DNA of 64,000 bases from Actinoplanes sp. NBRC 103695. GTDB lineage: Bacteria; Actinomycetota; Actinomycetes; Mycobacteriales; Micromonosporaceae. The notes below the pieces were generated by a model. That model ran no database searches. It was not told where the DNA came from and worked only from the letters and a program-made list of their open reading frames with translations. Numbering within the stretch: position 1 is the first letter of the stretch; every line of letters begins with the position of its first letter. The DNA lies in assembly GCF_030269485.1 (NCBI RefSeq), contig NZ_BSTL01000013.1, positions 124,001 through 188,000 of the forward strand, given 5' to 3'. Positions 222 through 31,191 of the stretch are shown here, piece by piece. A program made the translations under genes and the position numbers.

Positions 222-240
<19 letters not shown>

Positions 241-3512: not shown

Positions 3513-3640
3513 GGCCCTCTTCCCTTCGGTTGCCGGTGTGTACGGATCGAAGCTAGGTGGGTGCCGAGGCGCGCGGCCGCCGGTCGTCACCTTCCTGCCA
3601 GCGCGCGTCCGGCGCCCCGCCCCGCGGCGACGATCGGTGC

Positions 3641-6600
3641 ATGACAACCGTCATCGTGCGGCGACCGGCCCGGCGACCGGCACCCGAACCGCCCTCCGGC
3701 GACCTCCGGCTGGAGGCTCCGCCGGAGATCCCGCCGCCCGGCGAACGGCAGTGGACGCAGGCCCTCTACGTGCTGCCGATGGTCGGCATCCTGGCCGTGG
3801 TGCTGCTGACCTCGTCCGGCTCGTCGAACGGCAGCTCGCGGCTGCTGATCTACGGCGTGATCGCCGTCGGCGTACTGGCGATGGTGCTGGTCACGGTGTT
3901 CCGCGGCAGCGGGCCGAGCAGCGCCTCGATGGGCCATGCGCGGCGCCGCTACCTGCGCCGGCTGGCCCAGCACCGGAGCCGGATGCGCCGCGACATCGAG
4001 CGGCAGCGGGCGGCGACGGCGTTCCTGCACCCGGCGCCGGACACGCTGTGGGCGATGGCCGCCGGACCCCGGCTGTGGGAGCGGCGCGCCGACGACGAGG
4101 ACTTCGCGGTGGTACGGGTGGGCACCGGCCCGCAGTCACCGTCGACCACCCTGATCTCGCCCAGCACCAAGCCGCTGGAGCAGCTGGAGCCGTTGTCCGC
4201 GCTGGCGTTGCGGCGGTTCATCCGGGCACACGCGGCGGTGCCCGGGCTGCCCCTGGCGATGCCGCTGACCGGCTTCGCCCGGGTGCACGTCCAGGGCGAC
4301 CGGGACTGGGCCGCCGCGCTGGTCCGGGCCATGATCGGCCAGCTGGTCACGATGCACGCCCCGGACGACGTACGGATCGCGGTGTGCGCGCCGCCGGACC
4401 GGCTGCGCCACTGGGACTGGGTGAAGTGGCTGCCGCACGCCGGGCACCCGACCGTCAACGACGCGGCCGGTCCGGTCCGGCTGGTCGCCCCCGACCCGGA
4501 CGCGCTGGGCCAGTTGCTCGGCACGATGCTCGCCGACCGGCCGCGGTTCGACCCGGACGGACGGCACCCGGCCGCCGGCCCGCAGCTGGTCGTGGTCCGC
4601 GACGGCGCCGGCACCGAACTGCTCGGCGGGCTCGAGGGCGTGGTGGTGCTCGACCTCAGCGCGGCGCCGCTGCGCGGCCTGGACCGCGGGACGCTCGTCC
4701 TGGACGTCTCCCCCACCGGTGAGCTGGCCGTGGCCGGAGTGGACGGTCGCACCGTCCTGGGCGTCGCCGACGGGCTGGCCACGACCGCCGCCGAAGGACT
4801 GGCCCGGCAGCTCGCGCCGCTGCGGCTCGGCGGCGCGGCCACCGGCGGCGATCAGGCCCTCTCCGCCGACCTGGGCCTGGCCGACCTGCTCGGGCTCGGC
4901 GATCCGCGAGCTCACCGGCCGGAACTGGGCTGGCGGCCGCGGCCGCCACGGGACCGGCTGCGCGTGCGGTTCGGCGTCGGCGCGGACGGCGTACCCATCG
5001 AATTGGACCTGAAGGAGTCGGCACAGGACGGCATGGGCCCGCACGGCCTGCTGATCGGAGCGACCGGATCGGGCAAGTCGGAACTGCTGCGGACGCTGGT
5101 GCTCGCGCTCGCGGTGACCCATTCGCCCAGCGAGCTGAACTTCGCGCTGATCGACTTCAAGGGCGGCGCGACCTTCGCCCGGATGGACGCCCTCCCGCAC
5201 ACCAGCGCGGTGATCACCAACCTGGAGAACGCGCTGTCGCTGGTCGACCGGATGACCGACGCGCTGAACGGGGAATTGATCCGGCGGCAGGAACTGCTCG
5301 CGGCGGCCGGCAACTTCGCGTCGTTGCGGGACTACGAGCGCGCCCGGGCGGCCGGCGCGCCGCTGCCCGAGGTGCCGACGCTGCTGGTCGTCTGCGACGA
5401 GTTCAGTGAGCTGCTGTCCTTCAAGCCCGAGTTCATCGACACGTTCGTGCAGATCGGGCGGCTCGGGCGTTCGCTCGGCGTGCACCTGCTGCTGGCCAGT
5501 CAGCGGCTCGAGGAGGGCCGGCTGCGCGGGCTGGACGGGCACCTGTCCTACCGGATCGGGCTGCGCACCTTCTCGGCCATGGAGAGCCGGGCGGTGATCG
5601 GGGTGGCCGACGCGTTCCAGCTGCCCCGCGCGCCGGGGCACGGCTACTTCCAGAACGGGGACGAGCCGCTGGTGCGGTTCCGGTCGGCGTACGTGTCGGG
5701 TGTGCACGCCCGGCCCGGCCCCGCCTTCGCCGACAACGCGCCCGACGCCGACCTCGACCTGCTCGACTGGACCACCGCGTACCAGCCGCCCCGGATCGCC
5801 CCGGCCGCGCCCGAACCGGACCCGGAGAGCGGTGACAGCCTGCTCGACATCCTGGTCGGGCGCCTCGACGGGCACGGCGCGCCGGCACACCAGGTGTGGC
5901 TGCCGCCGCTCGCCGAACCGCCCACGCTGGACATGTTCGGCCCGCCCGCGATGCCGTTGCACGTCGCCGTCGGCATCGTGGACAAGCCGCTCGATCAGCG
6001 GCGAGACCCGTACCAGCTGGACCTGTCCGCGGGCGCCGGGCACGTCGTCGTCACCGGCGGGCCCCGCAGCGGCAAGAGCACCGCGCTGCGAACCGTCATG
6101 GCCTCGCTGGCGCTCAGCCACTCGCCGCGCGACGTGCAGTTCTACTGCCTCGACTTCGGCGGCGGCGGGCTCACCGCGCTGCGCGGGCTGCCGCACGTCG
6201 GCGGGATCGCGCACCGGCAGAACGCGGGCGCCGTCCGGCGCACCGTCGCGCAGGTGATCACGCTGCTCAACCAGCGCGAACGGTGGTTCGCCGAGAACGA
6301 GATCGACGGGATCGCCGCGTACCGCGCCGCACGCTCGGCCGGTGCGCACGCCGACCAGGAGTACGGCGACGTGTTCCTGGTCGTGGACGGCTGGCAGACC
6401 CTGCGCAAGGAGTACGAGGACCTGGAGGACCGGTTCGCCGACCTGGCCGCGCGCGGGCTGGCGTACGGGGTGCACCTGGCCGTCTCGTGCGCCCGCTCGT
6501 TCGAGATGCGACCGGCCCTGCGCGACCTCTTCGGCACCCGGATCGAGCTGCGGCTCGGCGACCCGGTCGACACCACGGTGGACCGGACCGCCGCCCAGCG

Positions 6601-7513
6601 AGTCCCCGACCGGGCGCCGGGGCGGGGCGTCGCGCCGACCAAGCACCAGATGCACCTGGCACTCCCCCGGATCGACGGTGTCCGCGCCGAGGCCGGGCTG
6701 CGGGACGCCACCGCCGCACTCGTGCAGGCCGTCGCCGAGCAGTGGCCGCGGGAGCGTGCTCCGCGCGTACGCCTGCTCCCGGCTCTGGTCCCGGAGACCG
6801 CCCTGCCGGCGGCCGACGACGGCCTGGCCCTGCCGATCGGCCTCGACGAACAGGACCTCGGGCCGGCCCGCGTCGACTTCGCCGCCGACCCGCACCTGAT
6901 GCTGATCGGCGACGGGAAATCCGGCAAGACCGGGTTCCTGCGGCTGCTCGCGCGGCGGCTCGTCGCCGGGCACACCCCCGAACAGGCACTGATCGTCATG
7001 ATCGACCACCGGCGCGGCATGCTCGGCGAAGTGCCCGCATCGCATCTGCTCGGCCACGGCGCCGACGGCACCGGCACCCGGCGGCTGATGGACGAGACGG
7101 CCAAGGCGATGCGGGAGCGCGCGCCCGGCCCCGACGTGACCCCCGACCAGCTGCGCAAACGGTCGTGGTGGCGCGGGCCGGAGCTGTTCGTGCTGATCGA
7201 TGACTACGACCTGGTGGTCAGCACGATGGACAACCCGCTGCAGCCGCTGCTCGAGTTCCTGCCCCAGGGCCGCGAGCTCGGCCTGCATGTGGTCGTCACC
7301 CGGCGCAGCGGCGGGGCCGGGCGGGCGCTGTTCGAGCCGTTCCTGGCGCGGCTCCGCGACATCGGATCGCCCGGGATCATGCTCAGCGGCGACCGCGGCG
7401 AAGGCCCCCTGCTCGGCGGGCTGCGGCCGGAGAACCTGCCGCCCGGACGCGGCCGGCTGCTCGCCCGGGGCGAGCCGCCCCGGATGGTTCAACTCGCTTG
7501 GCACCCTGTTTAG
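3641..7513 (+). CDS. eccC: Type VII secretion ATPase EccC (fused EccCa-EccCb)
   Basis: The motor of ESX secretion: a membrane-bound FtsK/SpoIIIE-type ATPase that recognises WXG100 substrates. Read from ATG 3641 it has 1290 residues, the length of a fused EccC. Two N-terminal TM helices (about 40-58 and 68-88) are followed by three ATPase domains with Walker A motifs GATGSGKSELL (about 472), GGPRSGKSTAL (about 805) and GDGKSGKTGFL (about 1089). Walker B-like segments are LLVVCDEFSELL, VFLVVDGW and LFVLIDDYD. An upstream in-frame extension of 28 codons is Arg/Pro-rich and was rejected. The gene is followed after 15 nt by another ESX-substrate-like gene with its own AGGAGAGG site. Confidence 0.95.
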   Translation: MTTVIVRRPARRPAPEPPSGDLRLEAPPEIPPPGERQWTQALYVLPMVGILAVVLLTSSGSSNGSSRLLIYGVIAVGVLAMVLVTVFRGSGPSSASMGHARRRYLRRLAQHRSRMRRDIERQRAATAFLHPAPDTLWAMAAGPRLWERRADDEDFAVVRVGTGPQSPSTTLISPSTKPLEQLEPLSALALRRFIRAHAAVPGLPLAMPLTGFARVHVQGDRDWAAALVRAMIGQLVTMHAPDDVRIAVCAPPDRLRHWDWVKWLPHAGHPTVNDAAGPVRLVAPDPDALGQLLGTMLADRPRFDPDGRHPAAGPQLVVVRDGAGTELLGGLEGVVVLDLSAAPLRGLDRGTLVLDVSPTGELAVAGVDGRTVLGVADGLATTAAEGLARQLAPLRLGGAATGGDQALSADLGLADLLGLGDPRAHRPELGWRPRPPRDRLRVRFGVGADGVPIELDLKESAQDGMGPHGLLIGATGSGKSELLRTLVLALAVTHSPSELNFALIDFKGGATFARMDALPHTSAVITNLENALSLVDRMTDALNGELIRRQELLAAAGNFASLRDYERARAAGAPLPEVPTLLVVCDEFSELLSFKPEFIDTFVQIGRLGRSLGVHLLLASQRLEEGRLRGLDGHLSYRIGLRTFSAMESRAVIGVADAFQLPRAPGHGYFQNGDEPLVRFRSAYVSGVHARPGPAFADNAPDADLDLLDWTTAYQPPRIAPAAPEPDPESGDSLLDILVGRLDGHGAPAHQVWLPPLAEPPTLDMFGPPAMPLHVAVGIVDKPLDQRRDPYQLDLSAGAGHVVVTGGPRSGKSTALRTVMASLALSHSPRDVQFYCLDFGGGGLTALRGLPHVGGIAHRQNAGAVRRTVAQVITLLNQRERWFAENEIDGIAAYRAARSAGAHADQEYGDVFLVVDGWQTLRKEYEDLEDRFADLAARGLAYGVHLAVSCARSFEMRPALRDLFGTRIELRLGDPVDTTVDRTAAQRVPDRAPGRGVAPTKHQMHLALPRIDGVRAEAGLRDATAALVQAVAEQWPRERAPRVRLLPALVPETALPAADDGLALPIGLDEQDLGPARVDFAADPHLMLIGDGKSGKTGFLRLLARRLVAGHTPEQALIVMIDHRRGMLGEVPASHLLGHGADGTGTRRLMDETAKAMRERAPGPDVTPDQLRKRSWWRGPELFVLIDDYDLVVSTMDNPLQPLLEFLPQGRELGLHVVVTRRSGGAGRALFEPFLARLRDIGSPGIMLSGDRGEGPLLGGLRPENLPPGRGRLLARGEPPRMVQLAWHPV

Positions 7514-10920: not shown

Positions 10921-10936
10921 ACCGCACCTCTCCGCT

Positions 10937-12673: not shown

Positions 12674-12679
12674 CCCGAC

Positions 12680-12689: not shown

Positions 12690-12696
12690 CTGTCCG

Positions 12697-13431: not shown

Positions 13432-13475
13432 GGAGGTCCGGTTGGGGCCCGCGGTGCCGAGCTTTCCGCCGTTTT

Positions 13476-13792: not shown

Positions 13793-13985
13793 GTGCCCGG
13801 CTACCACCGCGAGCGGCGGCAGCGACGGCGAGCAGGCACCCGGGGGGCCTGGCAGCCGGGCCCGACCCCACGCCCAGCGTAAGCGGCGGCACTGACGGCG
13901 AGCAGGCACCCGGGGGCCTGGCAGCCGGGCCCGACCCACACCGGGCGCAAGCAGCGACGGCGAGCAGGCACCCGGGGCCTGGCGA
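13793..13985. repeat. Right arm plus three tandem 62-70 bp repeats
   Basis: The right arm (13793-13879) is followed by two more, partly shortened copies of its second half. The core gacggcgagcaggcaccc recurs at 13824, 13894 and 13956, each followed by a ggcctgg-type stretch; the first two copies continue with cagccgggcccgaccc. The array ends 15 bp before the stop of the phzF-like gene. It is non-coding by all signs seen. Confidence 0.8.
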
Positions 13986-14000
13986 AGCGCTGGCGGCCTG

Positions 14001-14828: not shown

Positions 14829-14861
14829 CGGCTACCCCCGGGGATGTGACAGGATCGGGAT

Positions 14862-15572: not shown

Positions 15573-15578
15573 GCGACG

Positions 15579-17546: not shown

Positions 17547-17619
17547 TGTGCCCCTTCCGCGAGCGTGACGCTGAGGAGACGATACCGCTACAGACCCACA
17601 GATCCGACTGGCAACCCGA

Positions 17620-18219: not shown

Positions 18220-18241
18220 CGTCCGGGCCGGCCGCGGCTTC

Positions 18242-18247
18242 TAGGGT
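18242..18247 (+). promoter_or_regulatory. -10 element of a leaderless hydrolase mRNA
   Basis: TAGGGT fits TANNNT and lies 6 nt before the ATG at 18254, with no ribosome site between, as in other leaderless genes of this window. Confidence 0.4.
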
Positions 18248-18253
18248 GGAATC

Positions 18254-19075: not shown

Positions 19076-19094
19076 CCCGGAAAGCAAAGCGGGG

Positions 19095-20501
19095 CTAACC
19101 CGCGAAAACAGGGTCGCGGGCGTGCGCCGGGTCGAGGCCCGCGCCGAGCGGCACCCGGGACACCAGGCTCGCCGGGAGCCGGACCGGGCGGGCGGTGCCA
19201 TAGCCGAGCATGCCCGGCACGTCCGGCCCGGCCAGCGGGAACGCCCGGCCCTGGTCGGTGACCAGCATCAGGGTGCCGGCGCGAGCCTCCGCGCTGGGCA
19301 GCACCTCGGCGAGCACCGCACGCCCCGGCGGCACGTGCACCCGGTCGGCCAGAGGCAACCCCTCGGCGGTACGCCCGGCCGTCGGCACCGTGGTGGCCGG
19401 CAGTGTCCCGCCCACCTGAAGGCGCGGCACCGCGGCGCCGTCGTCGTAGGTGACACAGACCGGCCCGCTCGCGGACGCGAACCGCGGGCGCGTCGCGGGC
19501 ACGTCACTGTCGACGGGCGTGGAGAGAGTGGCCGCCGCGGCCGCCGACACCGCGAGCGGGATCGGCGCCGGCTCGTTGCCCGGGTAGGCCTTGGCGGTGC
19601 CCGGCGAGGCGAGCTGGATGGCGGACTGGAGTTCGCTGATCGCCCGCAGCCGGTTCTCCTCGGCCAGATAGTGCTGCCTCTGCCCGCCGGCCTCCGCCAC
19701 GAGCAACTGCCCGATGAGGATGCCGGGGCGGTTCGCCACCGCGTGCGACGGGCGGCCGGCATCGCGTACCGGAAGAGAAGCGATCGTGGCACCGGCCGGG
19801 AGGATGTCGACCAGCGCGTGCCCCACCTGGGCCAGGGGTTCGGCGCGCAGCGCGAGGCCGACCGTGACCGTGTCGCTCTGGCGGATCAGATGCCGGTGGC
19901 CGCGCCAGATCAGGTAATGGTCGCCGGACGCGGGCACGTCCACCAGCAGCGCCTCGTCGCCGAGCGGCCGCGCGCCCGCCGGTCCGGCCCCGGCCAGCAG
20001 CACCGACCGGTCGACCGCGGTCCCGGCCCCGTCCGAGACACGCTCCGAGCAGAGCGACCAGCCGCCGGTGAGCAGCTGTTTCGGGGCCGGCAGCGTGTCC
20101 GGGACGTCCGGTATGCCGATCGCCGGGCCGCGGGCGACGCCGACCAGCGACTCGCGGGAGATCGTCCGGGTGGGCGCGTTGCGGCCCAGCGCGAGCAGCG
20201 CGGACGTGTAGTTGAGCACCGGATGTAGCACGGCGTCGACGTACACGTAGCGGGCGCCGGTCTCCTTGACCACGATGACCGATTTGCCGTCTCGCCAGGC
20301 GGTGTTGCCGCCGGGCCGGAAGAAGCCGTACGCGCCGACGGCGACCAGCGCGATCACGGCGAGCGCGACGCTGCCCCACGCGGCGAGCGCCGGGCGGCGC
20401 AACGGCGGCTGTTCCGGATCGGTCTCGTGGATCACCAGCGCGGAATGCACCCGCCGGCCGAGGAAGCGGTGCGCCTGCAACAGGTCGCGACGGCTGGCCA
20501 T
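19095..20501 (-). CDS. eccB: Type VII secretion protein EccB
   Basis: A core part of the ESX membrane complex, 468 residues. A short cytoplasmic N-terminus with the family mark QAHRFLGRRVHSALV is followed by one TM helix (about 42-62) and a large extracytoplasmic domain made of repeated beta-rich units. It starts 1 nt after the stop of eccD and is thus coupled to it. It lies 11.6 kb from eccC, an uncommon split of the core genes. Confidence 0.9.
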   Translation of the reverse strand: MASRRDLLQAHRFLGRRVHSALVIHETDPEQPPLRRPALAAWGSVALAVIALVAVGAYGFFRPGGNTAWRDGKSVIVVKETGARYVYVDAVLHPVLNYTSALLALGRNAPTRTISRESLVGVARGPAIGIPDVPDTLPAPKQLLTGGWSLCSERVSDGAGTAVDRSVLLAGAGPAGARPLGDEALLVDVPASGDHYLIWRGHRHLIRQSDTVTVGLALRAEPLAQVGHALVDILPAGATIASLPVRDAGRPSHAVANRPGILIGQLLVAEAGGQRQHYLAEENRLRAISELQSAIQLASPGTAKAYPGNEPAPIPLAVSAAAAATLSTPVDSDVPATRPRFASASGPVCVTYDDGAAVPRLQVGGTLPATTVPTAGRTAEGLPLADRVHVPPGRAVLAEVLPSAEARAGTLMLVTDQGRAFPLAGPDVPGMLGYGTARPVRLPASLVSRVPLGAGLDPAHARDPVFAG

Positions 20502-20502
20502 G

Positions 20503-21822
20503 TCAGCCGCCCAGCCCGCGGACCAGGCCGAACAGGTTCAGCACCGCGCACAGCACCGGCACGCAGGCCAGCACCAGCAGGACCTCGAGGAGTTCGGCGT
20601 ACCGGGCGGGGGCCGCGCCGGGCGGGCGGCGGCTGTAGATCAGCCCGGCGGCCACGGCCAGCGCGGTCAGGGCGAGCAGGATCGGCACGGCCCGCCCCGG
20701 TGGGTGCAGCGCCGGCCAGGCGGTGGCCAGGGCCGCGGCGGTGGTCACGGCGGCGATCAGCAGCGGCAGGCGGTGGCGCACGGTGGGATAGATGCGGGCG
20801 CGTACGCCGAAGCCGGCCGCCAGCACGGCCAGCAGGATCACGGTGGACGCGCCGCGCGCGGTGCCGAGCAGCACGGCGGCGGCCGACGCGGTCAACGCCC
20901 CGCCCCACAGCATCCCGGTGAGCAGCGCGTCGGCCCGGAGCACCGCCGACCGCACCACCGACCGCGGCGGCTGGGGCTCGTCGCGTACCAGGTCGGCGGC
21001 GGTGCGGGGCAGCGTGGGCGCGGGCAGCCGGCCGAGCCGTACGGCGAGCGGCCCGAGCAGCGGCGAGAAGAGGAACACCACCGACGCGACGACCGCGGCC
21101 GCCCCCGGTGGCGTGGCCAGCCCGAGCAGGACGAACCCGGCCGCCGAGCCGCCGAGCAGCGCGGAGGTCGCCGCGGCGACGAAGACCGGCACCCGGTCGG
21201 CCACCCCGAGCGCCCCGGCCGTGGCCGCCACCAGCACCGCCGCGCATCCCCCGAGCAGCGGCCCGCCGATCGTCAGCTCCCCGCCGACGAACGCGGCGGG
21301 CAACGCCGACGCGGCGAGCACCGCCCCTGCGCCCGAGTCGCCACCGGCCCTGGCCAGCACCGTGCCGCCGGCCAGCAGGGCCACCGCGACCAGCAGCGCC
21401 GCCCGCCCGGCCCCGGCCTGACCGGCGGCGGCAAGCATCAGCGCGACCGCGGGAACGGCGGCCGCCAGCCCGGCGATCCGGGTGTGCCGCGGTCCCCACA
21501 GCCGCCCGCCGCGACCGGCGGCCGTGGCGATCGCGTCGACCAGGTCGTCGTACTCCAGCTCCGGCCACTCCACCGTCCCGGGCACCAGGTGCAGCACCTC
21601 GCCGTCCCGGACGTGCTGGCCGGTGAGCGTGCCCGCCGGGTCGATCCGGGTGCCGTCCGGCCGGCGCAGCACCCAGCCGCCGTCCGGGATGTCGTCCGCC
21701 GCGGCCGCCCGGCGCAGCAGGCCGGGCAGCATCTCGGCGACCGCCGCCCGGTCCGGCAGCGCCAGGTCGATCCGCCGGGTCGGCGCCGCCACGGTCACCC
21801 GGACCAGGCCGGTCGTGTCCAT
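20503..21822 (-). CDS. eccD: Type VII secretion integral membrane protein EccD
   Basis: A protein of 439 residues: an N-terminal ubiquitin-like domain (1-80; VRVTVAAPTRRIDLALPD) and then about eleven hydrophobic helices from about residue 125 on, which form the ESX channel-side membrane domain. The start has AAGGGA 6 nt ahead. The 130 bp to the divergent kinase-like gene must hold promoters for both. First gene of an eccD-eccB unit. Confidence 0.9.
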   Translation of the reverse strand: MDTTGLVRVTVAAPTRRIDLALPDRAAVAEMLPGLLRRAAAADDIPDGGWVLRRPDGTRIDPAGTLTGQHVRDGEVLHLVPGTVEWPELEYDDLVDAIATAAGRGGRLWGPRHTRIAGLAAAVPAVALMLAAAGQAGAGRAALLVAVALLAGGTVLARAGGDSGAGAVLAASALPAAFVGGELTIGGPLLGGCAAVLVAATAGALGVADRVPVFVAAATSALLGGSAAGFVLLGLATPPGAAAVVASVVFLFSPLLGPLAVRLGRLPAPTLPRTAADLVRDEPQPPRSVVRSAVLRADALLTGMLWGGALTASAAAVLLGTARGASTVILLAVLAAGFGVRARIYPTVRHRLPLLIAAVTTAAALATAWPALHPPGRAVPILLALTALAVAAGLIYSRRPPGAAPARYAELLEVLLVLACVPVLCAVLNLFGLVRGLGG

Positions 21823-21952: not shown

Positions 21953-23203
21953 ATGACGATCGACGACGAGTACCGCGAGCTGGTGCCGCTCGGCGACCCG
22001 CCGGGCTCGGTGCTGGCCGGGGTGCGGGCCGACGACGGGCAGGCGTGGGCGCTGAAGGTGCTGCCGGGGCGGCTGGATCGGCGTACCCGCACCGAGGTGG
22101 ACGGTGAGCTGCGCAAACTCGCCGGGCCCACCGCGACCGCGCCGATCGTGGCCGCGGACCGGGTCGTGGAGCTGCCGGACGGCCGCACGGCGCTGCGCCG
22201 GGAGTTGTGCGCGCAGTCGCTGCCGGAGCTGATCGAGGCGTTCGGGCCGCTGTCCGTCGCGGACACGGTCGCGCTGGCCGGGGCGCTCGCCGAGGCGCTG
22301 ACCGCCGCGGGCGTGGTGCACGGCGGCGTGACCCCGGGCAACGTGCTGTTCCGCGAGACCGGCGAGCCGGTGCTGACCGACTTCGGCGTGGCGGTGCGGC
22401 GGGCGTACCCGCCGGAGCACGACACCGGCTTCCGGGCGCCGGAGACGATCCGGGACGGCGTGCTGGACGAGCGCGCGGACCGCTACGGCCTGGGCGCGAT
22501 CCTGCATCTGGCGCTGGCCGGGACGCCGCCGTTCCCGGCCCGGCCCGGCGAGCCGGAGGGCGACCACCTGCTGCGCGTACTGACCGAGACCGCACCGGCG
22601 ATCGAGCGCGACGACCTGCCGGCCTGGCTGGCCGAGCTGGTGCGCGACCTGCTGGCGAAGGATCCCGAGCGGCGGCCGTCCGACGTCGCCGGGCGGCTGG
22701 CCCGACCGGAGGGCGACGGACCGCGACCCGCCGGCGCGCCGATCATCGAGTTCGGACCGGAGCGGCCGAGCCGTCTGCCGCGCCCCTCGCTACTGGCCGC
22801 CGTGGCCGTGTCCGCGCTGCTCGCAGTGGCGGCGGTGCTGTTCGTGCTGAACCGGCCACGGGACACACCCATGCCGCCGATGCCGCCTCCGGCCGCCGCC
22901 GCCTCCAGCGCCGCGCCCGGGCCGAGCGCTCCGGCCGTACGCCTGGAACTGGCCCCGCCGATCGACCAGGGCACCGTGGTCCAGCTGACCTGGACCAGCA
23001 GCCTCTCCGGCCTGGACTATTCGGTGACCGCGGCGGCGGACGACGGCACGAAGACGGACGAGCTGGTGGGCCGGGCCACCGAGTACCGCTTCGAGGTGGA
23101 TCCCGCGCGCCGCTACTGCTTCGAGGTGCGGGCCTCGAGCGACAGCGGCGGCCCGTGGGTCAGCCTGCCCAAGGCGATCCGCGGCGCCACCTGTAGCCAG
23201 TAG
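21953..23203 (+). CDS. Membrane-bound Ser/Thr-kinase-like protein, probable pseudokinase
   Basis: A protein of 416 residues. The kinase-like domain (1-250) keeps the ATP-binding Lys35 (WALKVLP) and the DFG motif (TDFGV, 143-145), but the catalytic loop reads VVHGGVTPGN: the Asp of HRD is Gly125. The Gly-rich loop is also weak. A TM helix (about 279-300) leads to a Pro/Ala linker and a C-terminal domain that resembles an fn3 fold (VVQLTWTSSLSGLDYSV). I use the ATG at 21953, which has GAGG 9 nt ahead; the ATG at 21944 is too close to it. Without the Asp, phosphotransfer is unlikely; it may bind nucleotide and act as a sensor or scaffold in the ESX locus. Confidence 0.8.
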   Translation: MTIDDEYRELVPLGDPPGSVLAGVRADDGQAWALKVLPGRLDRRTRTEVDGELRKLAGPTATAPIVAADRVVELPDGRTALRRELCAQSLPELIEAFGPLSVADTVALAGALAEALTAAGVVHGGVTPGNVLFRETGEPVLTDFGVAVRRAYPPEHDTGFRAPETIRDGVLDERADRYGLGAILHLALAGTPPFPARPGEPEGDHLLRVLTETAPAIERDDLPAWLAELVRDLLAKDPERRPSDVAGRLARPEGDGPRPAGAPIIEFGPERPSRLPRPSLLAAVAVSALLAVAAVLFVLNRPRDTPMPPMPPPAAAASSAAPGPSAPAVRLELAPPIDQGTVVQLTWTSSLSGLDYSVTAAADDGTKTDELVGRATEYRFEVDPARRYCFEVRASSDSGGPWVSLPKAIRGATCSQ

Positions 23204-25280
23204 GGAGCAGCGGGCGCGGGTCAAGCAGGGCGCGCACCCGGGCCACCCAGCCTTGCCGGGCCAGGCCGCGACGCACCACGCGGACCGACGTCCAGGACTG
23301 CGCGACGTCCTCGTCGGACGGCTGATCGCCGGACCACAGCGCCTGGTCGACGATGCCGGCCAGGGTACGGATCTCCCCCGTCGTCCCGTCGTCGCTGACC
23401 GGACCGGCGGCGGTGCTCAGGTCCCGCACCGTCATGCCGGGCGTGACCTCGACGCCGTACGCCCGCAGCCTGTCCCGCACCTCGGACCACGCGCCGAGCA
23501 CCGCGGCCGCGCCGGTCCTCCGCCGCCGCCACCAGTAGCGCACCGTCCACAGCGCCGGCACGCCGACCGGCCACCCGATCAGCGGCACCGCGATCAGCGC
23601 CGCCCACGGCAGATCGGTGCCCTCCGAGGCGGGCGCGGGGGCGGGCTTCACCGGCCTGATCGTCGCGTCGACCAGATCCTTCGGCCGCGGCAGCGCGTCC
23701 CGGGCGCGTGCCGCCTCGGCGGCCAGGCCGGTACCGGTGGCGGCGCCGGCGGCCGACGCGATCGGGTCCAGCGGCACCCAGCCGACGCCCTGCACGGCCA
23801 CCTCCGGCCAGGCCAGCACGTCGCGGTTGCGGACCACCACGACGCCGTCCTCGGGCGCGGGGGCGCGGAAGCCGACCACCAGCCGCGCCGGGATGCCGGC
23901 CATCCGGGCCAGCGCGACGTACGCCGCGGCGAACTGCTCGCTGGTGCCGCTGTGGGTGATCAGCAGGAACCTGTTGAGCTGCGCCCAGCCGTGCCCGGTC
24001 GGCCGGTCCGGGCCGGACGCCGCGTGGTAGTTGTCCCGCAGGTACTTCTCCAGCACCAGCGCGCCCTGGAACGACGCCCGCACGTCGCCCATCGCCGTGG
24101 CGAGGAGTTCCTCCACCGAGTCCGGCGGCTCGCCCACCCCGTTCAGGGCGCCCGGCGCGTTCGGGTCGATCGGCGCCTCACGCAGCGTCGTCGAGTCCAC
24201 CTCCGGCTGCCACCAGCTCAGCTCGTACTCCGTGGGCCCGGACGGCGCGTCCTGCCGCATCAGCATGCCGTAGTCCGGGATCACCAGCGGCGCCGGCCCG
24301 TCCACCGAGGCCGGCCACGTCTGGGTGGGCAGCCACGGCCCGCCGGTGTCGGCGACGGTCACCCGGGCCCGCTTCAGAGTCGCCCGGACCGTCACCTGCG
24401 GTCCCGGCGGCAGCAGCGTGCCCATCCGCCGGTACTCCTCGGTCGCGTTCCAGCTCACCCCGTCGAACTCGTCCAGCACCACCAGCGGCCACAGACCCGC
24501 GCCGGGCCCGTCGGTCACCCGGAACACCTCGGCCTCGGGATGCTCGAGCCGGTAGGCGATCTCGTCCAGCGGGTTGGCCGGCGCGCTCTGTTCCACCGCG
24601 GCGGGCCGGCCGTCCCGCAACGAGAACCGCGGCTCCGCGTCCGGCAGGAGGATCAAGGTCAATCCCGCGATGAGTACGCTCACCGCGCCGGACGCCGCCA
24701 GCCTCAGCAGCGTCGCGCCCGTGGCCAGCGTGACCGCCGCCGCGACCGCGTAGGCGAGCGCGGCCAGCACCGCCGGACCCGGACCCGGCACGGCGTAGAA
24801 CTGGCTCAGCACCACCACGGCGAGGCTCGGCAGCAGCGCGGCCGGGGCGGCCCGCAGCCGCAGCCGGAGCTCCGCGCCCGACACGGCGGCCACCACGACC
24901 AGCAGCGGAACGAAGATCAGCAGGTCCGGCTCGGGGCGCGCCGGCCAGGTCGACTCCAGCACGAGCTGCCAGGAATGGGTCGTCCCGTCGGCGAGGGCGG
25001 CGACCGTACGCCCGGTGGGCAGCCCGAACGCCGTCGTGCCGGACAGCAGCGTCTCGGCCACCGCCAGCAGACCGGCCAGTGAGGCCAGTAGCGGGCGCCA
25101 GTCGACCAGGCTCGGCCGCACTCCACACAGGATCGTCACGGCCAGCACGGTCAGCGCCGGCACGAGCACCGGGACGAGCAGCGGCACCAGCCCGAACACC
25201 GGCGCGAAGAGCAGCCCGGCGATGGCGGCGGCGAGCACCGGGCCCGCCGCGCGCCAGGTCAGCCGATCGAGTCGTTCCAC
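23160..25280 (-). CDS. TgpA-type transglutaminase-like membrane protein without catalytic Cys and His
   Basis: A protein of 706 residues with about seven hydrophobic helices (1-215), an extracytoplasmic part with a transglutaminase-like domain (about 415-510), a further TM (about 565) and a cytoplasmic DUF4129-like tail. In the active family the triad is in G-x-C-x-x-F-A, D-x-H-A-W-P-E and the later D-P. Here they read GTSEQFAAAY (Ser447 for Cys), DVLAWPEV (Leu489 for His) and VPLDP (Asp505 kept). The GTG start overlaps the DUF58 gene by 22 nt; the stop overlaps the convergent kinase gene. MoxR-DUF58-TgpA is a common conserved trio in bacteria. Confidence 0.85.
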   Translation of the reverse strand: MERLDRLTWRAAGPVLAAAIAGLLFAPVFGLVPLLVPVLVPALTVLAVTILCGVRPSLVDWRPLLASLAGLLAVAETLLSGTTAFGLPTGRTVAALADGTTHSWQLVLESTWPARPEPDLLIFVPLLVVVAAVSGAELRLRLRAAPAALLPSLAVVVLSQFYAVPGPGPAVLAALAYAVAAAVTLATGATLLRLAASGAVSVLIAGLTLILLPDAEPRFSLRDGRPAAVEQSAPANPLDEIAYRLEHPEAEVFRVTDGPGAGLWPLVVLDEFDGVSWNATEEYRRMGTLLPPGPQVTVRATLKRARVTVADTGGPWLPTQTWPASVDGPAPLVIPDYGMLMRQDAPSGPTEYELSWWQPEVDSTTLREAPIDPNAPGALNGVGEPPDSVEELLATAMGDVRASFQGALVLEKYLRDNYHAASGPDRPTGHGWAQLNRFLLITHSGTSEQFAAAYVALARMAGIPARLVVGFRAPAPEDGVVVVRNRDVLAWPEVAVQGVGWVPLDPIASAAGAATGTGLAAEAARARDALPRPKDLVDATIRPVKPAPAPASEGTDLPWAALIAVPLIGWPVGVPALWTVRYWWRRRRTGAAAVLGAWSEVRDRLRAYGVEVTPGMTVRDLSTAAGPVSDDGTTGEIRTLAGIVDQALWSGDQPSDEDVAQSWTSVRVVRRGLARQGWVARVRALLDPRPLLPTGYRWRRGSPWAG

Positions 25281-26365
25281 TGCCGCACCGCCTGAGCCGC
25301 ACCGAGCGCGCGGAGAACGCGTACGCCCGAAGGAACCTCGAGCCACCCGCCCACCGCGACCACCACCACCGCGGCGAACTCGGCCCGCCGGGCCAGCACC
25401 GCCTCGACCGCCGCGCCACCGCCGGTGACCAGCACCAATCCCCCGCCCGGGCGCAGCGCCGGGTCCTGCCGGGCGGCGTCCTGGCGCACCTCGCTCAGCT
25501 CGTCCAGCAACCGCCGGGTGGCCAGCGGGCCGCCCTGCACCGCCAGATCGCGGCCGGTCCAGGTGACCAGCCGGGTGTCCTGTGTCGCCCGGGCGGACGC
25601 GCACAGCAGCGACGCGGTCAGGTCCACCGCCTCCTCGAAGAACGCCGGGGTCAGCACGCCCGGCCGGTTGTCCAGCAGCACCGTGGTGCGGGCGCGGCGC
25701 GGGTCGGCGAGGTCCCGGACCATCAGCCGGCCGGTCCGCGCGGTCGCCTTCCAGTGCAGGTGGCGGACCTCGTCGCCGGGCACGTACTCGCGGACGTCGA
25801 GCTGCTCGACCGAGCCGCGCAGCGCGGCGTCCGGTGTCCCCTCATGATGATGCCGGGGCACGCCGGCGACCATCGCGCGGGCGGCGTGCCGGCGCGGATG
25901 CACCCACAGGGTGGCGGTCGCCGTGACCGGCAGGCGGCGCCGGGCCAGGTCGAACGGGTCGGCCCGGTGCAACGTCAGAGGTCCCACGGTCAGCTTGCCC
26001 CGCGTCGCGGTCGGCAGCTCGTAGGTGCGGGTCACCTCGACGCCCGGCAACAACCCGGGCAGCCGCACGTGGCGGCGCTCGCCACCGGCGGCGTCCTCCG
26101 CGCGGAAACCGGGCTGCCGGCGGTTGCCGGTGCTGCGTACCCGCAGGCGGGCCAGCGCCGGTCGGCCCCGCTCGACCCGGTCCGGGTGGACCACCCGGTG
26201 CACCTCGACCGCGAGCTGCGGCACGGTAAGCGCGATCGCGGCCAGCACCGCGGCGGCCGCGACCGCGCCCAGCGTGGTCAGCACCGCGAGACGCAGCCAC
26301 AGCCCGGCGGCGAGCAGCAGCACCGCGGCCACGGACACCGCGAGGCCACGGCCGGTGAGACGCAC
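25259..26365 (-). CDS. DUF58 membrane protein
   Basis: A protein of 368 residues with two N-terminal TM helices (about 7-48), a beta-rich extracytoplasmic-like region and the DUF58 signature VREYVPGDEVRHLHWKATAR (about residues 192-211), followed by a vWA-like fold (TTVLLDNRPG). Such proteins work with MoxR ATPases, probably in assembly of membrane or secreted complexes. It lies between moxR and the transglutaminase-like gene, with close spacing (3 nt after moxR, 22-nt overlap with the next gene). Confidence 0.85.
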   Translation of the reverse strand: MRLTGRGLAVSVAAVLLLAAGLWLRLAVLTTLGAVAAAAVLAAIALTVPQLAVEVHRVVHPDRVERGRPALARLRVRSTGNRRQPGFRAEDAAGGERRHVRLPGLLPGVEVTRTYELPTATRGKLTVGPLTLHRADPFDLARRRLPVTATATLWVHPRRHAARAMVAGVPRHHHEGTPDAALRGSVEQLDVREYVPGDEVRHLHWKATARTGRLMVRDLADPRRARTTVLLDNRPGVLTPAFFEEAVDLTASLLCASARATQDTRLVTWTGRDLAVQGGPLATRRLLDELSEVRQDAARQDPALRPGGGLVLVTGGGAAVEAVLARRAEFAAVVVVAVGGWLEVPSGVRVLRALGAAQAVRQWNDSIG

Positions 26366-26368: not shown

Positions 26369-27310
26369 TCAGGCACTCGCGGTCGGGACCGGCACCGCGG
26401 ACAGCACCTCGGCGACGATGCCGTCGGTGGCGCGCAGGTTCAGCTCGGCCTCGGCGGTGCGCACCAGGCGATGCGCCAGCACCGGGACGGCCACATCCTT
26501 CACGTCGTCCGGCGTCACGTAGCCGCGGCCGTCGATCGCTGCGATCGCGCGGGCCGCCCGGACCAGGGCGATGCTGCCCCGGACGCTGGCGCCGTAACGC
26601 AGGGCGGCGTGCTCCCGGGTGGCCTCGGCGAGGCGGACCGCGTAGTCCGCCACCGCCGGGTCGACGTGCTGAGCGCGTACCTCATCGATCGCCTTTTGCA
26701 GTGTGGCCGTGTCCACGACCGCCGACAGGTCGTCGGGGCCCGCGCCGGCCGCGCTGCCCAGCACCACACCCACCTCGGACTTTCTATCCGGGTAGCCCAC
26801 CGACAGCCGCATCAGGAAGCGGTCCAGCTGCGCCTCCGGCAGGCGGTAGGTGCCCTCCAGCTCGATCGGGTTCTGCGTGGCCACCACCAGGAACGGGCGC
26901 GGCACCGGGTGCGCCTCGCCGTCCACCGTGACCCGCTGCTCCTCGAGCACCTCGAGCAGCGCCGACTGGGTTTTCGGCGTGCCCCGGTTGATCTCGTCGG
27001 CCACCACCACGTTGGCGAACACCGCACCCGGGTGGAAGACGAACTTCTCCTCCTTCTGCCGGTAGACGGTCACCCCCGTGATGTCGCCGGGCAGCAGGTC
27101 GGGGGTGAACTGGATGCGGCTCCAGCTGCCACCGATGCTGCGCGCGATCGCCCGGGCCAGGGTGGTCTTGCCGAGGCCGGGCACGTCCTCGATGAGCAGG
27201 TGCCCCTCGGCGAGCAGGCCGGCCACGGCCAGCCGGACCAGCTCGTCCTTGCCCTTGATCACCTCGCGCACGTTCGCCGCGATCGCCGCGGCGGTCTCGC
27301 CGGCGCTCAC
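26369..27310 (-). CDS. MoxR-family AAA+ ATPase
   Basis: A chaperone-like ATPase of 313 residues with Walker A VPGLGKTTLAR (about 51-60), Walker B VVVADEINR and sensor VVATQNPIE. MoxR proteins act on vWA/DUF58 partners to ripen protein complexes. The GTG start is in the GTGA overlap with the stop of the fn3 gene (27307-27310), which indicates coupled translation; one GTG directly upstream is a possible alternative. Confidence 0.9.
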   Translation of the reverse strand: MSAGETAAAIAANVREVIKGKDELVRLAVAGLLAEGHLLIEDVPGLGKTTLARAIARSIGGSWSRIQFTPDLLPGDITGVTVYRQKEEKFVFHPGAVFANVVVADEINRGTPKTQSALLEVLEEQRVTVDGEAHPVPRPFLVVATQNPIELEGTYRLPEAQLDRFLMRLSVGYPDRKSEVGVVLGSAAGAGPDDLSAVVDTATLQKAIDEVRAQHVDPAVADYAVRLAEATREHAALRYGASVRGSIALVRAARAIAAIDGRGYVTPDDVKDVAVPVLAHRLVRTAEAELNLRATDGIVAEVLSAVPVPTASA

Positions 27311-29211
27311 CACGACACGTGATTCGACTCGAGGCCGTTGGCTGTCACCCAGACGGCGCCACCCGTCCCGTTGTACGGAAACCTGTCGTCCACGGTCAGA
27401 TTGCCCTTGTCGTCGGTGTTGCGGTGGGCCCCCGGGTTGAAATCCCCCCAGTCCTCGCTGAAGACGTCGATGTCGACGTCGGTGTTCGGCGGGAACCCGC
27501 GGACCACCACCTTGATGAATCGGCAGTCCGGCGCCACGCAGTCGTCCCCGTGCTCCGCCGGTCCGCCCCGCGAGACCGTCACCGACCTGGTCGCCGCCGG
27601 CGCAGGGAGCCTGATGCTGGTCGAGGCGGCCGTGCCGCGCCCGGCCGAGTTCTGCGCGGCCACCGTGATCCGGTAGGTCTTGCCGCGGGTCAGCCCGGTC
27701 AGCTTGGTCTGCCGGCTGCCGCCGCCGACCGTGCGGCTGCCGCTCGACCCGCCCGACCAGGTCACCCGGTACCCGCCCACGGTGGCGCCGTTCGCGGTCG
27801 CCGCCTTCCAGCTCACCGTGATGGTGCTGCCCGACGCCGTGGCCCGCAGTCCGGGTGGGCGCCCCGGCGGGGACGGCGGATTGGCGGGCGGTCTGACGTC
27901 CCCGGACGTCCCCGACGGCGTCTGTGTCCGCGTCCTCTCCTCCGTCCGAGGCACGGCATTCGTGCCACCGGAGCCGCGCGACGGAGGGTCGGACGCCGGG
28001 CGCGGCGAACCGGTCGACGTTCCGCCGGTGGGCTGGTTCGTGGTCTCGGCGGGCGGCCGGACCGGCGGCCCGTCGTTCTTGTCGATCTTGCCGATCAGCG
28101 GCACGGCGTCCGCCCGCCCGTTCTCGCCGATCACCAGCACGCGCTTGCCCGCGCCGCCGGCGACGTAGACCCGCTGATCCTGGCCCCGGGTGAGCTCGGT
28201 GTCCTGGTTGCCCTCCTTCGGCACCTGGTGCGTGCCGCGCTGGCGGCCGTCCCGGTCGAAGGTCAGCACCTTGTTGTTGCTCCGGTCGAGCAGCACCACC
28301 GCGTCGCGGCCCGCGGCGGGCGCCGCGTAGTCGCCGGCCGGCAGAGGGATCGGCGGCGCGGCCGACAGCCGGCCGGCGGACAGCCCGGACGCGTCCAGCA
28401 GATGCAGCCGGTTGTTGGCGCCCGGCTCGACCACGGCCACCCGGCCGGCCAGGTCGGCCGCCCCGACCCTGGCCTCGGCGGTCAGGTCCCGGCCGATCCG
28501 CACCGGACGGCCCAGCCCGCCCTCGCCCACCGACGTGAACGTGTCGCTGTCGGTGTCCACGAAGACGGCCTGCCGGCCCACCACGGTCAACGCGCCGAGG
28601 TGACCCGCCGGGGCGTTCGCCCGGCAGTTCACGACCTCGGTGCCGGGCCTCAGGTAGCAGAGCCCGTTCGTGTCCTTGCGCAGCAGCCAGAGCGTGCCGT
28701 CCGAGGTGGCCACCGGGTCGCCCAGAGCGGCGCCGACCGCGATGCTGACCGGGTCCTCGCCGCCCATCCGCACCACCCGGCCCTGCTCGCGGTAGACCAG
28801 GTACGGCCCGCCCTTGACCTCCAGCGGCACCGCCCGTTCGCCGCTCGGCAGCGGGAAGGTCTCGTCGACCGTCAGCGTGGACTTGCCGAACCGGGCGCCG
28901 TCCTTCTTGCCGATCACATAGCCGCTGGTCTCGCCCTGGACGACCTGGGTGCCGGCCTCGTCCATGGCGTACAGCTTGACCTCGCCGTCCACCGCACCGG
29001 TGGACCCGTTGACGCGGAACACGCTGCCCTCGCCCTTGCCGTTCGACTGGGCGAACCAGTGCCCGGCCTGGGCGAAACGCAGGCCGCCGGTGGAGGCCGA
29101 GGCATCCGTGACAGCGGCGGTCACCCCGCCCGCCACGACCAGGGCGAGCAGGGCCAGCGGCAGCCGCCCGCCCCGCTGCGGCCGGAGCGCGCGCGTCATC
29201 TTTGCGAGCAT
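27307..29211 (-). CDS. Secreted or membrane-anchored beta-propeller protein with fn3 domain
   Basis: A protein of 634 residues. A basic start and a hydrophobic helix (about 18-35) are followed by 350 residues of repeated beta-rich units of propeller type (SVFRVNGSTGAVDGEVKL and similar), a Pro/Thr/Ser linker (about 380-450) and one fn3 domain (ATASGSTITVSWKAATANG). The last 90 residues have Cys-x4-Cys and an acidic stretch (TDVDIDVFSEDWGDF). I use the ATG at 29211 because GAAGG lies 8 nt ahead; the ATG at 29232 adds a repeat of the first seven residues (MLAKVTR/MLAKMTR). Such fn3 proteins are usual in ESX loci of this group; function not known. Confidence 0.75.
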   Translation of the reverse strand: MLAKMTRALRPQRGGRLPLALLALVVAGGVTAAVTDASASTGGLRFAQAGHWFAQSNGKGEGSVFRVNGSTGAVDGEVKLYAMDEAGTQVVQGETSGYVIGKKDGARFGKSTLTVDETFPLPSGERAVPLEVKGGPYLVYREQGRVVRMGGEDPVSIAVGAALGDPVATSDGTLWLLRKDTNGLCYLRPGTEVVNCRANAPAGHLGALTVVGRQAVFVDTDSDTFTSVGEGGLGRPVRIGRDLTAEARVGAADLAGRVAVVEPGANNRLHLLDASGLSAGRLSAAPPIPLPAGDYAAPAAGRDAVVLLDRSNNKVLTFDRDGRQRGTHQVPKEGNQDTELTRGQDQRVYVAGGAGKRVLVIGENGRADAVPLIGKIDKNDGPPVRPPAETTNQPTGGTSTGSPRPASDPPSRGSGGTNAVPRTEERTRTQTPSGTSGDVRPPANPPSPPGRPPGLRATASGSTITVSWKAATANGATVGGYRVTWSGGSSGSRTVGGGSRQTKLTGLTRGKTYRITVAAQNSAGRGTAASTSIRLPAPAATRSVTVSRGGPAEHGDDCVAPDCRFIKVVVRGFPPNTDVDIDVFSEDWGDFNPGAHRNTDDKGNLTVDDRFPYNGTGGAVWVTANGLESNHVSW

Positions 29212-29275
29212 TCTCGTCACCTTCGCGAGCATAGAAGAAGGCGTACATGATCGGTCCATTACGGATACGTAACCG

Positions 29276-30529
29276 TCAATCACCGGCCGCGGGCAGCGAC
29301 ATCTCGAAGATCGCCCCGCCGCCGTCCGAGTTGAAGACCCGCAGCGTGCCGCCGTGCGCCTGAGCCACCCAGCGCACGATGGACAGGCCCAGGCCGGTGG
29401 ACCCGCCCGCACTGGAGAACCGGTCGAACGTCTGCTTCGCCAGCGCCGGGTCGATACCCGGCCCCTGGTCGGCCACGATCACCCGGCCACCCGCCACAGT
29501 CACCTGCACGACCGCGGGCTTCCCCTCCACCCGGCCGTGCCGCAGCGCGTTGTTCAACAGGTTCGCGACGGCCCGCTGCACCAGCGTCGGATCGGCGTTC
29601 ACCTTGGTCGGCGCCGTGGTCACGGTGACCGTGGCACCCCCCGCCGGCGTCTCCTCGACCACGGCGGCGACCAGTTGGTCCAGCCACACCGGCTCGATCG
29701 CGAGCGGCTCCACCCCCGCGGCGAGGCGCGCACGCATCAGCACGCCCTCGATGATCGTGCCCATCCGGCGGGCCAGGTCGACCGTGCGGGGCAGCAGTTC
29801 CGCGCGCTCCCCCGGGTTCGCCACCGCCGCCTCGGCCAGCGCGCGCAGTGCCGCCACCGGAGTACGCAGATCGTGGGCGGTGTCGGCGAGCAGCACCTCC
29901 TGCTGCTCCAGGGCGACCGCGGCCGGCCGGATCGAGCGCACCGCCAGCCGGAAGGAGGCCGCGCCGACCGCGCCCAGCACCAGGAAGCCGCCGATCAGCA
30001 CGACCAGCGTGTACCCACGATGCCCGGCCAGCTGGCCGGACGGATCCGACACCGCGACGACAGCACCCGCGTACTTGCCGTTCTGCAGCCGGAACGGCTC
30101 CGCCCACACCCGGTACCGCTTGTCGTCGGCCACCCGGTAACCGGACTGGATCCGTCCGCTGGCCACCGCCGCCACCGCCAGCGAAGCCTTCAGCTCGTCC
30201 GGCGCCGGGACGCAGTCCCGGTCGCTCAGGTACCGCGGGAACTGCTCGGCCGGTCCCGGAAACACCCCGAACTCCGGACAGGACTGACTCATCGGGTCGT
30301 CGCCGACGAACGACGTGTCCACAGTGTCGCCGTTCTGCCCGATCAGCCGCTGCATGCTGCTGGTGACCCGGCTCAGTTCCGCGTCCATCCGCAGTTCCCG
30401 CTCCGCGGTGTCCGAGCGGACCAGGAGGGCCGCGCAGGCCAGGTAGCCGACCGCGCAGAACAGCGTCACCCACAGGACCAGCCGGCCGGGCAGCCCGCGC
30501 AGCTGGTCCAGCGCCGAAGCCCCGGTCAC
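29276..30529 (-). CDS. Sensor histidine kinase
   Basis: A membrane kinase of 417 residues. TM1 (about 16-37) and TM2 (about 172-192) frame an external sensor domain of 135 residues with two Cys (SQSCPEF, SDRDCVPAP) that could form a disulfide. The HisKA box is TAHDLRTPVAAL; the ATPase domain has NLLNNALRHG, DQGPGIDP and GLGLSIVRW. No HAMP domain is evident. The GTG start overlaps the stop of the response regulator gene (GTGA), so the pair is co-translated. It lies inside the ESX block and may sense envelope state. Confidence 0.9.
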   Translation of the reverse strand: MTGASALDQLRGLPGRLVLWVTLFCAVGYLACAALLVRSDTAERELRMDAELSRVTSSMQRLIGQNGDTVDTSFVGDDPMSQSCPEFGVFPGPAEQFPRYLSDRDCVPAPDELKASLAVAAVASGRIQSGYRVADDKRYRVWAEPFRLQNGKYAGAVVAVSDPSGQLAGHRGYTLVVLIGGFLVLGAVGAASFRLAVRSIRPAAVALEQQEVLLADTAHDLRTPVAALRALAEAAVANPGERAELLPRTVDLARRMGTIIEGVLMRARLAAGVEPLAIEPVWLDQLVAAVVEETPAGGATVTVTTAPTKVNADPTLVQRAVANLLNNALRHGRVEGKPAVVQVTVAGGRVIVADQGPGIDPALAKQTFDRFSSAGGSTGLGLSIVRWVAQAHGGTLRVFNSDGGGAIFEMSLPAAGD

Positions 30530-31191
30530 TCGTCACCGCCGATCCGGTAACCCCGCCCACGCACCGTGTGCAGCAGCTCCGGCTCGCCCAGCTTCCCGCG
30601 CAGCCGCTTGATCACCACGTCGACCACGTTGGACATCGGATCGGTGCTCGAATCCCAGCAGTGCTCGATCAGGTCGGTGCGGCTCACCGCCAGGCCCGTC
30701 CGGCTCATCAGAAACTCCAGCACGGCGAACTCCTTGCCGGTCAGCCCGAGCAGCACACCGGCCCGGCGAACCTGCCGGCGTGCCGAGTCCAGCTCCAGGT
30801 CGGCCAGCCGCAACACCGACGGCCGCCCCGAACCGGCGCGCCGCCCCAGCGTCAGCACCCGCGCGGTCATCTCGGCCACCGCGAACGGCTTCACCAGATA
30901 GTCGTCGCCGCCGTGCTCGAAGCCCGCCACCACGTCGGCGATGGTGTCCCGCGCGGTCAGGAACAACACCGGCACCGCCCAGCCCTCCTGCCGGCGCCGA
31001 TGCACGTAGTTGATCGCGTCGCCGTCCGGAAGCATCCGGTCGAACACGACACAGTCGAACCGCCCATCGGCCAGGACCAGGTCGGCCGCGGCGATGTCCG
31101 CCGCCTGAGCGACCTCCAGGCCCGCGCCCGCCAGCTCGGTCGTCACGGCAAGCCGCAGGTCGTCGTCGTCCTCGACCACCATCACCCGCAC
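30526..31191 (-). CDS. OmpR-family response regulator
   Basis: A regulator of 221 residues: receiver domain with acidic pocket EDDDD, phospho-Asp in VVFDRMLPDGD (about residue 51), and Lys in YLVKPF; C-terminal winged helix with ELLHTVRGRGYRIGG. Partner of the histidine kinase downstream by overlap. It is closely related to the orphan regulator at 34483. Only 62 bp separate its start from the divergent SARP gene, a likely target. Confidence 0.9.
   Translation of the reverse strand: MRVMVVEDDDDLRLAVTTELAGAGLEVAQAADIAAADLVLADGRFDCVVFDRMLPDGDAINYVHRRRQEGWAVPVLFLTARDTIADVVAGFEHGGDDYLVKPFAVAEMTARVLTLGRRAGSGRPSVLRLADLELDSARRQVRRAGVLLGLTGKEFAVLEFLMSRTGLAVSRTDLIEHCWDSSTDPMSNVVDVVIKRLRGKLGEPELLHTVRGRGYRIGGDE

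Follow-up and report, generated by a model that had tools for sequence, protein, structure and literature searches.

Membrane-anchored pseudokinases without a catalytic Asp beside MoxR-DUF58-transglutaminase modules and type VII secretion genes

The locus described here raises the question of what a kinase fold does once phosphorylation stops. It lies in the window, the whole stretch of 64,000 nucleotides of Actinoplanes sp. NBRC 103695 DNA that we analysed, and it offers a natural experiment on this question in a setting, type VII secretion, from which a pseudokinase, EssB/YukC of the T7SSb, is already known.

The pseudokinase and its outer domain

The gene at 21953..23203 (+) is a single frame of 416 amino acids with no inner stops, and its product combines a kinase-fold domain, a predicted transmembrane (TM) helix and an outer domain. 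The Pfam Pkinase profile matches residues 18-243 (E 6.7e-19). The model of the whole protein, for which the alignment consisted of five distant kinases and the mean pLDDT is 68.8, has a two-lobed kinase, a helix at residues 277-299 (22781..22849, +) and six beta strands at residues 328-395. Comparison of the model with M. tuberculosis PknB gave a Z score of 25.5 over 235 residues with an rmsd of 2.6, which identifies the fold as a PknB-like kinase fold. The confidence of the model is low at the putative membrane helix and the first strands, with pLDDT blocks of 35-59 over residues 271-350 and of 72-79 over residues 351-400. From this arrangement we infer a cytoplasmic kinase domain, one TM helix and a C-terminal domain that would lie on the outer side of the membrane.

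The Asp of the HRD motif is the mark of active Hanks-type Ser/Thr kinases. In the window protein this residue is missing and Gly125 takes its place. The catalytic loop HGGVTPGN (residues 123-130; 22319..22342, +) reads V-V-H123-G124-G125-V-T-P-G-N130 in the translation and is placed in the same way by the family alignment, so that the earlier note, which had read HGG for HRD and a lost Asp base from this loop, was correct. Asn130 is kept, and the two other elements that the note had listed as remaining, the beta-3 lysine Lys35 (22055..22057, +) and the DFG motif (residues 143-145; 22379..22387, +), are both present. The glycine-rich loop is degenerate, so that ATP binding by the window protein may be weak or lost.

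The outer domain (22922..23200, +) was delimited from the model and from an alignment of 18 sequences, in all of which Cys389 and Cys414 are invariant; these two residues may form a disulfide. Beta strands and zero helix are predicted for it in both models (mean pLDDT 68.8 for the whole protein and 66.1 for the other). The resemblance to an fn3 fold that had been proposed for this domain held only in part. A profile search against solved structures placed a fibronectin type III protein at the top (E 0.027), followed by chitinase A1, tissue factor and KIAA0343 (E 0.058-0.073), all of which we take to be fn3 domains. These matches are weak, the Pfam fn3 score of 14.5 bits (E 0.042) is below the cut-off of 25, and Foldseek, run with the outer domain alone, returned zero matches at E <= 0.001, its weak matches including subtilase, FlgD, GOLD and fn3 domains. 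We regard an fn3 fold as likely. The domain is also fast-evolving, with a dN of 0.352 and a dS of 0.353 between the window gene and its nearest orthologue.

Loss of the catalytic Asp in the family

A protein search of 60 genomes found an orthologue from the same genus that is 69% identical to the window protein, the closest found, and four further orthologues at 48-51% identity, two from the same genus and two from other families. The first has HGG, as the window protein does, although the earlier note had allowed that close orthologues might have HGD; the others have HGG or HGA. In the window's taxonomic family, 354 genomes were searched with a profile, and clear Asp-less orthologues came from 16 of them, namely the window's own, 14 in which the gene reads through and one (G346) in which it is frameshifted, and it gave an HRD relative in one genome (G098). 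A search of the genome contigs for relatives of the window protein found only one distant kinase, and a search of the viral collection with A2 gave no relative.

Family members were collected with a profile of the outer domain, A3, made from 18 sequences of which 17 are Asp-less, and the sample therefore consists of kinases bearing this outer domain; Asp-less kinases that do not carry it fall outside. Of 397 genomes of the order searched with this profile, 31 have the outer domain, and 26 of these belong to one other family (f15). At the level of the class, 394 genomes yielded, besides the window's own, only four matches, all weak (26-34 bits), and these are kinases with HRD or HGD. The four were excluded from the family and are shown separately, and two weak places of the 47 listed (G119, and the third of G669, E 7.7e-5) were excluded as well. 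The resulting family has 61 genes with the outer domain. The kinase domain is readable in 59 of them, the frameshifted L075 and L126 being left out of the residue counts.

Among the readable members, position 125 is Gly in 43, Ala in 8, Ser in 3, Arg in 3 and Asp in 2. The Asp is thus absent from 57 of 59 genes, and the 57 come from 42 genomes. A sequencing error or a mutation of a single strain would leave relatives of the window gene with an ordinary motif; given these counts and the HGG of the nearest orthologue, we rejected this explanation, in whose favour nothing came to light and which has next to no probability. Lys35, Asn130 and Asp143 are each present in 59/59, the alpha-C Glu in 55/59, Phe144 in 55/59 and Gly145 in 54/59. 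Variants of DFG include DFE in three members besides L077 and Ala or Gly for Phe in four. At two loci, L129 (8581-11162) and L137 (9831-12599), pseudokinase genes stand in tandem, one with HGS and the other with HGR.

The 57 Asp-less domains are set apart from the rest by one branch, with a support of 100/100, in a tree of 88 kinase domains; when the motif was masked, a quick tree gave this clade a support of 99 (SH-aLRT). For the 88-domain tree, 29 ordinary kinases were chosen, from 31 loci tried, by a pattern that requires the Asp, and the tree therefore bears on the unity of the Asp-less group and not on its frequency. The branches within the clade sum to 25.7 substitutions per site, and across the 57 rows K35, H123, N130, D143 and D176 are unchanged, 10 of 251 columns being fully conserved. 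The dN/dS of the kinase domain ranged from 0.13 to 0.34 with a median of 0.18 in 24 pairs, 21 of them within seven close genes. We conclude from the sequences that the window gene belongs to a conserved family of membrane-anchored pseudokinases with a single origin, that the catalytic Asp was lost once while the Lys, the catalytic-loop Asn and the DFG Asp were kept, and the alpha-C Glu in most members, and that purifying selection acts on the kinase domain in the pairs compared. This pattern of retention and selection is what would be expected for a domain kept for ATP binding or for its shape, and not for the usual phosphotransfer.

The activation segment and much or most of the C lobe are missing from two members, L076 and L077; the latter in addition carries Arg in place of the alpha-C Glu and reads DFA at the DFG position. 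Their genes (L076 9416-10504, L077 9466-10416) encode near-minimal kinase remnants in which the Lys, HGA, the Asn and Asp143 are kept together with a juxtamembrane PI-x-EF and the outer domain. Such truncation under an outer domain that stays, as well as the degenerate glycine-rich loop, would fit a vestigial kinase domain, a decaying fold in a protein whose function would depend on its membrane helix and outer domain only. This explanation does not agree with the Lys, Asn and DFG Asp, which are invariant in 57/57 over the whole divergence of the clade and are found even in the two shortened proteins, nor with the low dN/dS of the kinase domain, and we consider it rather unlikely.

The complete set of Lys, Asn and DFG Asp is also compatible with a protein that is still a protein kinase, either because another residue or a partner serves as the base or because it works slowly without one, and some kinases without the catalytic Asp do keep low activity. 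A compensating acidic residue was sought in the conservation analysis, and among the 24 best conserved columns none is special to the clade: the only acidic ones, D143 and D176, are shared by all ordinary kinases compared. The variation between Gly, Ala, Ser and Arg at position 125 also speaks against retained activity, which we think unlikely. Arg149 (22397-22399), four residues past the DFG Gly, is found in 56 of the 57 pseudokinases, whereas in the ordinary kinases Leu is the most frequent residue at this position, at 39%.

Neighbouring genes and a proposed role

The gene that faces the pseudokinase encodes a TgpA-like membrane protein (23160..25604, -; start perhaps nearer 25280) with the Pfam domains TgpA_N and Transglut_core. 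Its open frame overlaps the 3' end of the pseudokinase gene by 44 bases on the opposite strand, and the two genes thus face each other at their 3' ends, as had been noted. At its active site, Ser occupies the position of the Cys (23940-23942, -) and Leu that of the His (23814-23816, -): the window's TgpA has GTSEQF and DVLAWPEV where an intact paralogue of the same genome, L159, has GYCQQY and NAHAWTEV. We read these positions in 41 genes, 40 aligned over the core, including that of the window, and L066 by motif, leaving out genes cut at stretch ends. The Cys position holds Ser in 38, Thr in 2, Arg in 1 and Cys in 0, and the His position holds Leu in 31, Phe in 4, Val in 3, Thr in 2, Glu in 1 and His in 0. 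Of the Cys-His-Asp triad of active TgpA, the Cys and the His are therefore absent in 41/41; for Pseudomonas TgpA, the available text of PMC3507681 describes both the triad and activity. The description of the transglutaminase as inactive-looking, and of the two proteins as a pair of membrane-bound pseudoenzymes, is borne out by the loss of the Asp in 57 of 59 kinases and of both transglutaminase residues in every gene read. This suggests that the two proteins may now be signalling or scaffold parts and not enzymes. A second fn3-MoxR-DUF58-TgpA cluster in the window's genome (L169, G000:C24:82000-101900) also has a TgpA with Ser for Cys, and no match to the window pseudokinase was found in that stretch.

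Beyond TgpA on the same strand lie genes for a DUF58 protein (25259..26365, -; Pfam), for a MoxR AAA+ ATPase that occupies the 3' part of a longer open frame (26369..27346, -; Pfam AAA_3) and for a protein with a fibronectin type III (FN3) domain (27307..29265, -; Pfam fn3 E 1e-12), whose stop is at 27307 and whose start is placed tentatively. By eye the MoxR protein reads as intact, with PGLGKT and VVVADE, although strict motif patterns matched nothing. A histidine kinase and a response regulator are encoded beside this module (29276..31191, -; Pfam). On the other side of the pseudokinase, eccD (20503..21822, -; Pfam), which includes a YukD domain, is divergent from it at a distance of 130 bases from its start, and eccB (19095..20501, -; Pfam) follows. 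The window also contains an eccC-type ATPase gene (3557..7513, +) for which Pfam reports FtsK/SpoIIIE domains and no FHA, and a subtilase gene (222..1451, -; Pfam Peptidase_S8) that is presumably mycP, the name being assigned by inference. The ESX genes are split, and the ~10 kb between eccC and eccB (7850-19094) hold genes of the RibD_C, TetR, hydrolase, PhzF, M15 peptidase and GGDEF-plus-periplasmic-binding families.

Neighbours within ~10 kb were counted for all 61 family genes, and since some stretches end at contig ends the counts are lower bounds. The earlier note had called the pseudokinase ESX-linked. This link stands for the 24/61 genes that have eccB or eccD nearby, and the set of partners proved to be wider, with at least two of TgpA, DUF58 and MoxR at 44/61 genes; ESX as the sole partner was rejected on this comparison. 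Near 43/61 genes there is a sequence related to residues 1-400 of the window FN3 protein. For 16/61, eccB/eccD occurs together with two or more of the three module genes, and 57/61 have eccB/eccD or at least one of the three. The remaining 4/61 have neither; for one of these, the stretch is truncated at the end of its contig. Seventeen control stretches around other kinase matches of the window's genome, taken irrespective of whether these have the Asp, gave eccB/eccD in 0 and two of the three module genes in 0, with one moxR and one mycP match. Three genomes have one copy of the pseudokinase at an ESX locus and another at a module (L112/L139, L135/L136 and L142/L143), and the last of these genomes has a third copy, L124.

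The window's genome encodes four EccDs. When the 30 EccDs nearest to that of the window in 387 genomes are ranked, the pseudokinase adjoins 13 of the first 15 and none of the other 15. The EccD tree covered three paralogues only and was made by a quick method. In the two exceptions among the top 15, the pseudokinase is ~18 kb off (G619) or on another contig (G495).

The two Asp-bearing members of the family, L078 (HRD) and L140 (HGD), are found in the same module and adjoin an FHA-bearing FtsK-type ATPase (Pfam E for FHA 5.2e-12 and 1.2e-8, respectively); L078 is also near a WXG100 gene. At these two loci, where the kinase still has its Asp, the transglutaminase is likewise without its catalytic Cys and His, and the loss of the transglutaminase residues therefore probably preceded that of the kinase Asp. 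A tblastn search with the FHA part found nothing at E <= 1e-5 in the stretches analysed for the Asp-less loci, many of which do not contain the whole ATPase gene, and a Pfam scan of three EccCs from Asp-less loci (window, L071 and L142) reported no FHA. At the locus of a more distant HGD relative in G703, no FHA was detected in the 978-residue ATPase stretch. FHA as a marker of Asp-bearing loci rests on L078 and L140, and two loci are few. In G703, the HGD kinase gene is separated from that of the FtsK-type ATPase by a gene for a 1489-residue RHS-repeat protein (L162, 3998-8464), which is perhaps a secreted substrate of that system.

The explanation that we favour, and judge to be probable, is that the window protein is a nucleotide-binding, non-phosphorylating membrane adaptor that joins the FN3-MoxR-DUF58-TgpA module to one ESX subtype, with a possible effect on secretion. 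Its ancestor would have been an Asp-bearing kinase already in the same module. ATP-Mg would still be bound and be used to switch the protein or to hold its shape, and no phosphorylation would take place by the usual route. The outer domain might contact a partner in the envelope, the candidates being the FN3 protein or the disarmed TgpA, and the cytoplasmic domain might contact MoxR/DUF58 and/or the EccC-EccD-EccB complex. We count in favour of an adaptor the residue counts, the single well-supported clade with its conserved ATP-site residues, the low dN/dS, the neighbour counts with their controls, the genomes with one copy at each kind of locus, the EccD ranking, the presence of the Asp-bearing L078 and L140 in the same module and, by analogy, the active Pkb2 and the hub role of YukC described below. 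We count against it the degenerate glycine-rich loop, the truncation of L076 and L077, the DFG variants, the 4/61 genes without either set of neighbours and the fast outer domain.

The value of this family as an experiment lies in one clean loss, in the main ATP-site residues that were kept, in the Asp-bearing relatives within the module and in the disarmed transglutaminase that adjoins it. The family also links type VII secretion with the MoxR-DUF58-TgpA module, which is poorly understood.

Comparison with known systems

The literature search, with subscription papers outside its scope, found no paper on this pseudokinase family, and the available parts of PMC11217815 and PMC9600267 mention no kinase-like part of ESX/T7SSa. 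As described in the available text of PMC9600267, YukC is a T7SSb pseudokinase that acts as an interaction hub, has partly missing motifs and an all-helical outer domain, and does not bind ATP in vitro. The window protein is like EssB/YukC in having a cytoplasmic pseudokinase, one TM helix and an extracytoplasmic C-terminal domain at a type VII locus, its own topology being predicted and its helix of low confidence. Unlike EssB/YukC, it has an outer domain that is predicted to be beta-rich and not all-helical, it keeps Lys35, Asn130 and Asp143, and the neighbouring ATPase shows no FHA. EssB/YukC was not among the best 50-60 structure matches listed for the window protein, an absence that speaks neither for nor against a relation. 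We would take EssB/YukC as a parallel showing that such a topology can be a type VII hub and not as a shown relative.

The kinases TscD, TsdD and TseD of T7SSc-e are likewise membrane proteins with an N-terminal cytoplasmic kinase domain at T7SS loci (PMC11217815, available parts). According to the same source, TscD has a conserved active site, and both it and TsdD have extensively helical outer regions. The window protein, by contrast, has no Asp, and its gene has EccB/EccD-type (T7SSa) neighbours. In T7SSd, the ATPases carry FHA domains in which a phosphothreonine site is conserved, and a kinase is encoded next to them (PMC11217815). By analogy, this arrangement fits the L078 and L140 loci, where an FHA-bearing TsxC-type ATPase adjoins the kinase as at TsdD; in the window's EccC no FHA was reported.

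A 2025 review describes seven families of bacterial pseudokinases, ActPs1-3, GLW, CP1, DYD and DLHK, which are conserved, several of them actinobacterial and several with TM segments (PMC12599244). The window family shares these features. In the parts of the review available to us, all three motifs are degraded in ActPs1-3 and GLW, the Lys also being lost in ActPs1, ActPs2 and GLW, whereas the window family loses the Asp only; in DYD the Lys is replaced by Arg, in DLHK the Asp of HRD is retained, and we met no membrane family defined by loss of the base alone. CP1 has no TM regions and carries a COG3899 domain, and some of its members have one degraded motif. One CP1 protein, VLIK / Hkslcpgn / DFS, has lost the base and kept the Lys, Asn and Asp, which is the same pattern of loss and retention as in the window pseudokinase.

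The motif table of the review lists SelO as WHLK / Hgvmntdn / DYG (PMC12599244). Compared by these motifs only, SelO is like the window protein in that the catalytic Asp is lost and the Lys, the Asn and the DFG-type Asp are kept. To our knowledge, SelO is not a membrane protein of secretion loci. The shared pattern could mean that the window protein uses ATP in another reaction, such as the AMPylation carried out by SelO. By itself the pattern is a weak indication of this, as the CP1 pseudokinase shows the same one, and we consider such chemistry very unlikely. We would attach a similarly small probability to the proposal, again by analogy, of a membrane receptor enzyme that modifies MoxR, DUF58 or an ESX component with AMP or a different group and thereby controls type VII secretion.

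For the favoured adaptor, the PFNA operon of Bifidobacterium provides a comparison at the level of the whole module. In the available parts of PMC8430577 and PMC6803598, this operon consists of pkb2, fn3, aaa-atp/MoxR, duf58 and tgm, and Pkb2 is an active kinase that phosphorylates MoxR; the mycobacterial moxR operon has been likened to PFNA (PMC12067865, available parts). As in PFNA, genes for a membrane kinase-like protein, FN3, MoxR, DUF58 and a transglutaminase-like protein are found together in the window, a likeness in gene types. Unlike in PFNA, where Pkb2 is active, both the kinase and the transglutaminase of the window are without catalytic residues, the kinase gene (+) converges on the module (-) and does not lead it in one operon, and an ESX locus adjoins the module.
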